Origin: Pseudomonadota bacterium | Lineage (GTDB): Bacteria > Pseudomonadota > Alphaproteobacteria > Rhodobacterales > Rhodobacteraceae | Direction: 5' to 3' | Assembly: GCA_021813365.1 (NCBI GenBank) | Contig: JAKALB010000008.1 | Location: 1 to 43,494, forward strand | DNA length: 43,494 bases | Shown: positions 28,282 through 29,702 of the stretch, one piece after another | Position numbering within the stretch: the stretch's first letter is position 1 | Layout of the letters: each line of letters opens with the position of its first letter | The notes under the pieces: model-generated | What the model was told of the DNA's origin: nothing | Seen by the model: the letters and a program-made list of their open reading frames with translations, nothing else | Databases searched by the model: none | Program-made: the position numbers and the translations under genes

Positions 28282-28752
28282 TCAGGCGTCGAGCTTCTGC
28301 GCGATCGCCGGGGCAACGCCCTGATCGCTGGCACGGCTGATCTCGATCCGGCGCGGTTTCAGCGCCTCGGGCGTTTCGCGCACGAGATCGATGTTCAGAA
28401 GGCCGTTCTCGTGGCTCGCGGCCACGACGCGCACGTGATCGGCCAGCGCAAAGCGGCGCTCAAAGGCGCGGGTGGCGATGCCCCGGTGCAGATAGGTCTT
28501 TTCCTTGGCATCAGGCGCGCGGCGAGCCGAGACGAAAAGCGCCCCGTCCTTCACCTCGACCGACAGTTCCTCGGGCGAGAAGCCGGCGACCGCGATGCTG
28601 ATGCGATAGGCGTCCTCGGCGGTCTTCTCGATGTTGTAGGGCGGATAGGTCGGCTGCGCCACATCGGCGCTCAGCACACGATCCATCAGGTCGGCGATAC
28701 GGTCAAAGCCAACGGTGGCTCGGTAGAGCGGTGCGAAATCAAGCGTTTGCAT
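28282..28752 (-). CDS. hsp20: small heat shock protein Hsp20
   Basis: A 156-aa alpha-crystallin family chaperone that holds unfolding proteins during heat stress. The N-terminal FAPLYRATVGFDRIADLMDR is typical of IbpA-type proteins, and the alpha-crystallin domain covers about residues 38-130 (YPPYNIEKTAEDAYRISIAV, VKDGALFVSARRAP, FERRFALADHVRVVAASHEN, GLLNIDLVRE). The ATG at 28752 has a perfect GGAGG site, which is itself part of a proposed thermosensor hairpin. An RpoH-type promoter lies upstream, so the gene should be controlled both at transcription and at translation. Confidence 0.94.
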   Translation of the reverse strand: MQTLDFAPLYRATVGFDRIADLMDRVLSADVAQPTYPPYNIEKTAEDAYRISIAVAGFSPEELSVEVKDGALFVSARRAPDAKEKTYLHRGIATRAFERRFALADHVRVVAASHENGLLNIDLVRETPEALKPRRIEISRASDQGVAPAIAQKLDA

Positions 28753-28842
28753 GTCATCCTCCAGATGAGCGATGTCAGGTTGTGCCCTCCCGCTCAGGGA
28801 CGGGCGAGTGCCGCGGCAGAACCCGTCATGGCATCCTGCCGC
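28753..28842 (-). ncRNA. ROSE-type RNA thermometer in the hsp20 leader
   Basis: The minus-strand leader folds into three hairpins. The first has a 7-bp stem GCGGCAG/CTGCCGC (plus coordinates 28836-28842 with 28813-28819). The second pairs GCCC-g-TCCC with GGGAGGGC (28784-28805). The third places UCGCU (28768-28772) opposite the ribosome site GGAGGAU (28756-28762), with C-G, U-A and C-G pairs, then a G-G pair, a C-A and a U-U. UCGCU fits the U(U/C)GCU motif and the G-G opposition of ROSE elements known from rhizobial small heat shock genes. Heating would open the ribosome site. Confidence 0.68.
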
Positions 28843-28849
28843 ACTGATC

Positions 28850-28878
28850 AGTTGGGAACCGGCCCGCCCGGTTTCAAG
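28850..28878 (-). promoter_or_regulatory. RpoH (sigma-32) type promoter of hsp20
   Basis: On the minus strand CTTGAAA (28872-28878) is followed after 14 bases by TCCCAACT (28850-28857), close to the heat-shock consensus CTTGAAA / CCCCATnT. Predicted transcription starts around 28842, at the base of the first leader hairpin. Confidence 0.65.
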
Positions 28879-28889
28879 GGGTTTTGGGC

Positions 28890-29702
28890 TCAGGGAGAGG
28901 GCTTGATGAGCTTGGCACCGCCCGCGCCCAGCGCCCCGCCGCCCACCAGGACGCCGACCTTGCCCCTGGGCGACACGCTGGCCAGTTCGGCGGCCAGTTC
29001 GGCCTGCAACGCCGCCAGCGGATCGGCCACCGCCGAGGCCAGCGCCACCTTCTGTCCGTTCGCCTCGGCCTTGGCGGAAATGACCGAAACGACGGCTGGC
29101 CCCGCTGGCTCGATCACGAAGATCGGCGCCCCCGATGCGCCGAAGTCCACATCGCAATCCAGCACCAGCATCTCGTCCTGCTGCGCCAGCACCTGACAGA
29201 CCTGCTGCAGCGAGGGCGCTTCCGAGCGGGTTTCGGCATAGGACACCACGGCCACCTGGGCGTTTCGACCGGGCGCGGGCGCCATCGGGAAGGGCTGAAC
29301 CTTGGGCAGGCGGATCGGCTGATCCAGTTGCAGCAGGGCCAGATCGCGGGACACGCGAATGCTCTGGTCCGGCGTGCCAAAGACATAGCCTGGATAGATG
29401 ACCGCCGCGCGGACCCCCCGGTAGGCCTCGGCCCGTCCGTTGCGCCAGCCATCCAGGAACTGCATTTCGGTCACCGGATAGCGCTCGGCGGTGGCCTTGT
29501 CGAACAGGCAATGCGCCGCCGTCAATACCAGATCATCCGCCACCAGGGCCCCGGTGCAAAATTCGTCCTGACCGAACAGCAGCTTGCCCACCCCCAACCA
29601 CGCGCGGCCGGCGTCGCCGGTCTGCAGCTTGACCAGGGGCGTTTCGGCCAGCGCCGGAGCAGCCAGCAGGGCAAGGCAAAGGGCAAGACGATACAGCGGC
29701 AT
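28890..29702 (-). CDS. trypsin-like serine protease, secreted
   Basis: A 270-aa exported protease of the trypsin (S1) family. A signal peptide covers residues 1-19 (MPLYRLALCLALLAAPALA). The catalytic triad is visible: His in LVLTAAHCLF, Asp in SRDLALLQLD and Ser in DVDFGASGAPIF. Cys pairs flank the His and Ser regions. The C-terminus is a Gly/Ala-rich tail (GVLVGGGALGAGGAKLIK). The usual GDSGGP reads GASGAP, a variant common among bacterial members. It lies upstream of hsp20 on the same strand and may take part in envelope protein quality control, which is inference. Confidence 0.85.
   Translation of the reverse strand: MPLYRLALCLALLAAPALAETPLVKLQTGDAGRAWLGVGKLLFGQDEFCTGALVADDLVLTAAHCLFDKATAERYPVTEMQFLDGWRNGRAEAYRGVRAAVIYPGYVFGTPDQSIRVSRDLALLQLDQPIRLPKVQPFPMAPAPGRNAQVAVVSYAETRSEAPSLQQVCQVLAQQDEMLVLDCDVDFGASGAPIFVIEPAGPAVVSVISAKAEANGQKVALASAVADPLAALQAELAAELASVSPRGKVGVLVGGGALGAGGAKLIKPSP

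Follow-up and report, generated by a model that had tools for sequence, protein, structure and literature searches.

A Probable ROSE-Type RNA Thermometer behind an RpoH-Type Promoter in the hsp20 Leader of a Rhodobacteraceae Bacterium

Introduction

The DNA analyzed here, a whole stretch of 43,494 nucleotides that we call the window, carries on its minus strand an hsp20 gene whose 5' leader can be drawn as a series of hairpins, the last of them lying over the ribosome-binding site. An earlier note, made from the sequence alone, had read here an RpoH promoter followed by a leader that acts as an RNA thermometer of the ROSE type, and the question is whether that reading stands when the leader is compared with those of relatives and with the known ROSE families. 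In passages of PMC3669281, ROSE elements are defined by a U(U/C)GCU sequence that imperfectly pairs with the Shine-Dalgarno (SD) sequence in the gene-proximal hairpin, and are described as having three to four hairpins, or two in Pseudomonas. The part of the same paper on the P. aeruginosa ROSE reports that single deletions stabilizing the hairpin, one of them being that of G39, lower expression and inhibit ribosome binding.

Results

The hsp20 Gene and Its Neighborhood

The hsp20 gene (28282–28752, minus strand; ATG start codon at 28752–28750) encodes an IbpA-like small heat-shock protein of 156 aa (PF00011, E 4.2e-19). The protein is closest to IbpA, with a score of 145 bits against the NCBIfam IbpA model, which is under the cut-off of 212. 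Of 61 relatives searched at E 0.001, 51 have some Hsp20, and an hsp20 of the window's type was found at E 1e-40 in 168 of the family's 179 genomes; within the window's genus, 11 of 16 genomes gave a match at E 1e-45 and 5 of 16 were without one. We assembled 130 leaders, comprising 30 loci from the search of the 61 relatives and 100 of the 168 family genomes taken in rank order, with genomes already sampled being skipped and one genome (G204), whose match starts at residue 11, being left out; this sample leans toward better-scoring relatives.

Upstream of hsp20, on the same strand, is a gene for a trypsin-like protease (28890–29702; PF00089/PF13365), whose reading frame ends at 28890, its stop codon being 11 nt ahead of the −35 box of hsp20 described below. 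A scan for terminators gave nothing between the protease gene and hsp20, so that read-through from the one into the other is possible. The protease gene appears to be a conserved neighbor of hsp20. A C-terminal peptide resembling GAKFVKP-stop precedes hsp20 in 60 of the 130 leaders, as compared with one on the reverse strand.

An RpoH-Type Promoter

The earlier note had placed two promoter boxes ahead of a three-hairpin leader, and both are present on the minus strand, namely CTTGAAA (28872–28878) as the −35 element and CCCAACT (28850–28856) as the −10 element. The spacing between them is 15 nt, with TCCCAACT being obtained when T28857 is included. We found that the boxes are kept among the orthologous leaders: 128 of the 130 have [CG]TTGA[AC] between −165 and −95, as compared with a mean of 9.65 of 130 in shuffled upstream regions, and a CCCA-type box lies 15 or 16 nt past CTTGA[AC] in 118 of the 130, the exact CCCAACT being found in four. 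The arrangement that marks RpoH (sigma-32 type) promoters, CTTGAA-N15-16-CC..T at fixed spacing, is found here, and a sigma-70 scan found none.

Boxes of the form CTTGAA-N15-16-CCTATAT are presumably those of RpoH1 in S. meliloti, and RSP_1572 of R. sphaeroides is, we assume, an Hsp20. The former, as given in part of PMC4843759, resemble the −35 element of the window, and the latter belongs to the RpoHI regulon according to part of PMC3441632. From the boxes and their spacing, we infer that hsp20 would be transcribed with RpoH, from a putative start region at about 28844 (28841–28847).

Leader Architecture and Computed Folding

With this start, the leader would be about 92 nt long. It can be folded into three hairpins, each with one unpaired G on its 5' side, and all the listed pairs were checked to be standard pairs. 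Hairpin 1 (28813–28842, minus strand, as are the following) has 12 pairs, a bulged G28832 and the loop AUGAC, and hairpin 2 (28784–28805) reads GCCC-G-UCCC-UGAGC-GGGA-GGGC, with G28801 bulged. Hairpin 3 (28755–28774) reads CAUC-G-CUC-AUCUG-GAG-GAUG, with G28770 bulged or opposed. Since CAUC-G-CUC, which contains the ROSE motif UCGCU (28768–28772), pairs with GAG-GAUG in this hairpin, the SD sequence GGAGG (28758–28762) is covered, four of its five bases being paired; GGAGGAU lies at 28762–28756, and the ATG comes 2 nt past the end of hairpin 3. The setting of UCGCU against the GGAGGAU ribosome site, as read in the earlier note, is thus present. The same note had described a G-G opposition as the mark of ROSE elements, and here the outcome is divided: the same G stands in the Rfam ROSE consensus, but it is drawn there as a single bulged G, and sequence alone cannot tell whether G28770 is bulged or opposed to a G.

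The folding energy of the window's leader alone gave a z of −1.95, with 9 of 200 shuffles being as good, and the best computed fold at 37 °C (−41.9 kcal/mol) is not the three-hairpin fold (−40.1 kcal/mol), the gap being 1.8 kcal/mol. Because the z is modest and the best fold differs, energy does not settle the three-hairpin fold; the relatives do. The computed probability of the SD pair C28769–G28759 was 0.32 at 37 °C, and the ensemble probability that the SD of the window is unpaired rose only from about 0.11 at 37 °C to 0.15 at 50 °C. Over the 130 leaders, the SD was unpaired at 25 °C with a mean of 0.26, as compared with 0.40 when the upstream sequence was shuffled, and the gain in exposure from 25 to 45 °C was 0.036, hardly above the 0.024 of the shuffled control; these computed openings are to be read with the caveat that nearest-neighbor energies take no account of the non-canonical pairing in ROSE elements.

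Conservation and Compensatory Change

In 129 of the 130 leaders, UYGCU lies no more than 45 nt from the start codon. For the analysis of covariation, 54 leaders (L001–L029 and every fourth of the 100 family leaders) were aligned by sequence only with MAFFT, L030 being excluded as a leader that differs. In this alignment, 90.3% of the cells in the three hairpins were paired, as compared with 82.0% in shuffles, and two-sided changes were seen in 18 of 25 pairs (9.9 in shuffles) and in 116 cells (42.8 in shuffles). None of 500 shuffles matched these values, and every measure fell when the partner was shifted by 1–3 columns. Similarly, in the 43 leaders from outside the window's genus, two-sided changes were found in 17 of 25 pairs and in 86 cells, as compared with 34.7. 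Compensatory changes occurred in all three hairpins, both with and without the window's genus. They affected 6 of 8 consensus pairs in hairpin 1; in hairpin 3, columns 105/120 changed from C-G to U-A in one of the 54 leaders and to U-G in two, and columns 110/117 from C-G to U-A in three of the 54 and to U-G in six.

Under a stricter tree-based null (40 simulations, 130 leaders), one pair of hairpin 2 was clearly significant, beating all 40 null alignments, and was followed by a second hairpin 2 pair (E 0.075) and one hairpin 1 pair (E 0.125). No pair of hairpin 3, whose core hardly varies, was significant among the 130 leaders under this null. The earlier note had looked to covariation of the hairpins, above all of the UCGCU/GGAGG pairing, as a test of its reading. 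Compensatory changes are there in all three hairpins, but the core UCGCU/GGAGG is nearly invariant, so that the test is hard to apply to this pairing; some of the changes that it does have are two-sided.

Covariance Models and Spread of the Element

We built a covariance model, R1, from the 54 leaders, the window included; it covers the −10 box and the first codons, and part of its score comes from these. A second model, R2, was trained without the window's genus. With R2, the window scored 63.5 bits (E 4.5e-15), and all 10 other supplied leaders of the genus were recovered; R1, at E up to 1, matched one place in the window, the hsp20 leader. R1 matched 80 of 80 named loci, the best 80 among the matches listed, each match ending 9 nt inside hsp20, with some of these loci lying on contigs that had also supplied training loci. 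Pseudorhodobacter, Rhodobacter, Tabrizicola and Gemmobacter are among the best named records listed.

Over 289 alphaproteobacterial genomes, R1 gave 120 places in 104 genomes. Among the stronger loci, 29 were checked and all have hsp20 downstream, as do 10 of 20 loci drawn from the 22 weakest places (G279:C248 and G391:C23 were left out). The ten weak loci without hsp20 comprise two before clpB (L181, L190), one before rpoH (L188) and seven others (L178, L183, L184, L189, L191–L193), which we took for chance. We also noticed that a second, more distant hsp20 of the window's genome has a shorter element (L142:1501–1576, plus strand; G000:C164), which scored 24.0 bits with R1 and 24.5 bits with R2 and shows two hairpins by eye; two more R1 matches in this genome (L143, L144), at 13 bits, are without hsp20. 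The pattern CTTGAA..GGNYGCC..GGGNYC matched 40 of the 61 relatives, and its matches outside hsp20 leaders were tentatively read as background, the reversed-pattern control also giving matches.

Searches with Rfam Models

In what follows, we take RF00435 (ROSE) to be the rhizobial sHsp family and RF01832 (ROSE_2) to be that of the ibpA leader. At gathering score, Rfam gave no match in the whole window, and a search of 401 bases at E up to 10 gave no ROSE, the two matches being weak ones to snoRNAs. With lax filters on 117 bases, the scores were 17.7 bits for ROSE_3 (cut-off 43) and 16.7 bits for ROSE (cut-off 45), so the search with the Rfam ROSE covariance model that the earlier note had proposed goes against it, as the window stays under the gathering scores. 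Sub-threshold matches to ROSE, ROSE_2 or ROSE_3 were found on the leader in 6 of 20 relatives (L003, L009, L014, L015, L019, L021).

RF00435 matched 14 of 61 family genomes at E up to 1, none above the cut-off. Over the 289 genomes of the class, it matched 75 places in 69 genomes, one of them above the cut-off. Among these places, 45 overlap same-strand R1 matches, with a 5' offset of 14–19 nt in 44 of the 45, and 30 have no R1 match. R1 was built without sight of the Rfam seed, and the overlap of two independently built models indicates that both often find the same element. RF01832 gave weak matches in 37 of the 289 genomes, none above its cut-off, while the E. coli control scored above it; by our reading, its weak places fall together with those of R1 in two cases only, in G094 and G323. 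Failure at the gathering score is a test of membership in the Rfam models rather than of ROSE kind, the cut-offs missing nearly the whole class sample.

The Hairpin-1 Pattern on clpB and rpoH Leaders

The weak R1 loci before clpB and rpoH have the hairpin-1 pattern, GGAYGCC-loop-GGGNCC, in common. At the two clpB loci, the pattern comes after an RpoH-type promoter (L181:101–180 and L190:101–201, both plus strand). We collected 117 clpB leaders (L334–L390, L391–L450) from 30 and 27 further loci and 60 stretches; the sample is uneven, as the 30 loci are relatives of one genome (G320) and the remainder lean to high ClpB scores, and 4 of the 117 leaders begin a codon off. The pattern was present within 120 nt in 37 of the 117 leaders, and with CTTG 25–60 nt upstream in 32. 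Sixty dinucleotide shuffles gave 2.5 (maximum 6) and 0.33 (maximum 2), respectively, and the reversed-pattern control gave 1 and 0. In 26 leaders, the spacing from pattern to CTTG was 33–40 nt; these represent nine families, with 17 of the 26 in one. The third pair of the hairpin in these 26 was A-U in 15, C-G in two, U-G in one and A/G in eight, and as the last were taken for a slip of the pattern register in GGGG runs, the covariation evidence for clpB is weak.

Among the relatives of G320, the pattern was found in 19 of 30 clpB leaders and in 12 of 30 rpoH leaders, the latter being the best-matching locus of all 11 genomes of G320's genus and one doubtful case. It was absent from the clpB leaders of the window's genome (G000), G217 and G094 (L431–L433). 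L432 and L433, which belong to the window's family, seem by eye to have another kind of G+C-rich hairpin after the CTTG box.

Several observations made by eye bear on what follows hairpin 1. A second hairpin often seems to come after it in clpB leaders. Four clpB leaders (L341–L344) have UCGCU 26 nt ahead of the start codon, within the last 70 nt, and this sequence can be drawn opposite the SD so that one G bulges out, much like the ROSE of hsp20. R2 at E up to 10 gave no match in L341–L343 and only two weak ones, of 12.5 and 14.4 bits, in L344. In rpoH leaders L304–L314, the 11 best-matching loci of genus g307, an imperfect hairpin can be drawn over the SD after the pattern, so that the mRNA of the sigma factor may have a thermometer of its own. 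On 20 clpB/rpoH loci, Rfam gave no ROSE match except in clpB leader L413, which matches ROSE_3 at 32.8 bits (cut-off 43). The portions consulted of the literature on clpB with RNA thermometers contain no thermometer on clpB.

Since a UCGCU/SD hairpin can be drawn in the four clpB leaders and another SD-masking hairpin in the rpoH leaders, RNA-thermometer control may extend to the disaggregase and to the heat-shock sigma factor. We regard it as an evenly balanced proposition that ROSE features reach beyond sHsp genes, with hairpin 1 and its bulged G near RpoH-type 5' ends forming a module of hsp20, clpB and, in one genus, rpoH, and with clpB and rpoH maybe being thermometer-controlled.

Discussion

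The data presented above make it very probable that hsp20 has an RpoH promoter and, as its leader, an RNA thermometer of the ROSE type, and the central claim of the earlier note is supported by the comparative evidence. The window's leader has the features by which ROSE elements are defined, with UCGCU (28772–28768) standing imperfectly against GGAGGA, three hairpins, a number within the two to four of ROSE elements, and a register common with ROSE. In the mechanism that we propose, heat would increase RpoH activity and with it the transcription of hsp20. At normal temperature, the UCGCU strand would pair with GGAGG imperfectly, with one bulged or opposed G, and block ribosome entry; upon heating, the weak hairpin 3 would melt first and translation would begin, while the G+C-rich hairpins 1 and 2 would remain folded and serve as a scaffold or stabilizer. 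Melting and translational control are thus predictions from sequence and its conservation.

A different role for the same hairpins is conceivable, in which the leader is chiefly the site where Hsp20 represses its own translation as a means of sensing aggregation, temperature sensing being secondary; both functions may coexist. The IbpA-like nature of the protein fits this, as does the repression by E. coli IbpA of its own translation via the 5' untranslated region of the mRNA, described in part of PMC10474464, and the conserved hairpins 1 and 2, without any need to melt, would suit a protein-binding platform. However, that description concerns gammaproteobacteria and a conserved arginine, and the conserved UYGCU/SD hairpin is a thermometer signature according to passages of PMC3669281; we consider self-repression as the chief role unlikely.

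Lower still in our estimation, and quite improbable, is that the leader is a stable structured 5' end which shields the mRNA and holds down basal translation, heat control being transcriptional only, via RpoH. The conserved RpoH-type promoter alone would give heat induction, hairpins 1 and 2 are G+C-rich, the predicted opening of the SD with heat is small, and the hairpin-1 pattern recurs in clpB and rpoH leaders, close to their 5' end, with UYGCU in only 4 of the 37 pattern-bearing clpB leaders. Against this stands the near-universal retention of UYGCU in hsp20 leaders (129 of 130), in register with the ROSE families tested experimentally, as reported in part of PMC3669281. A perfect helix would repress equally, and the kept imperfection therefore argues for melting. 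As for coincidental hairpins in G+C-rich intergenic DNA, a folding energy just 1.95 sd under shuffles for the single sequence would agree with them, but the explanation is refuted by the conservation of the leader, by its compensatory changes and by R2, which found the window with the genus kept out of its training, and we reject it as having virtually no likelihood.

The thermometer reading of the hsp20 leader thus documents, with covariation, a ROSE lineage that Rfam cut-offs miss in the window's family and much of the Alphaproteobacteria. The 5' hairpin shared with clpB and rpoH leaders offers a testable extension of RNA-thermometer control past small heat-shock proteins.

Dual control by ROSE and RpoH of sHsp genes is already known from rhizobia, S. 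meliloti sHsp operons having ROSE elements and being also rpoH-dependent, as stated in part of PMC3989490. Closer to the window, the Roseobacter Nautella sp. R11 is stated to have ROSE-like motifs upstream of ibpA and hspD (PMC3230580, in the part compared). The clade, the gene class and the stated ROSE-like thermometers are the same, whereas that text gives a single-sentence statement without sequence or structure.

Among the Rfam families, RF00435 has a hairpin 1 (CCGG..-bulged G-CC..GG..CCGG) in register with the window's, and its last hairpin, UYGCUC..GGAGGA with a bulged G, is also in register, this gene-proximal hairpin masking the SD in both. It differs in the middle hairpin, which is a long unbulged stem in RF00435 and GCCC-G-UCC/GGA-GGGC in the window, and the window's last hairpin is shorter; the score is 16.7 against 45 bits. 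In ROSE_2, the first hairpin, GCCU-G-UCC..GGA-AGGC, is nearly the window's hairpin 2, and in the last hairpin, as aligned to L019, UCGCU stands opposite AGGA, but the model is without a counterpart of hairpin 1. The claim of the earlier note that the upstream sequence is unlike the rhizobial examples was therefore half right, as hairpins 1 and 3 are in register with RF00435 and hairpin 2 has a close counterpart in ROSE_2. The consensus of ROSE_3 (RF02523) opens with GGGAUGCC..GGGUCCC, the hairpin-1 sequence of the window, and contains UCGCU, but has two hairpins only; on the window, the model aligned hairpin 1 correctly and then used hairpin 2 as its last hairpin. The element thus unites features that are split in Rfam, namely the hairpin 1 known from both ROSE and ROSE_3, the hairpin with which ROSE_2 opens and the common UYGCU hairpin, and this joining suggests that ROSE, ROSE_2 and ROSE_3 belong to one old family.
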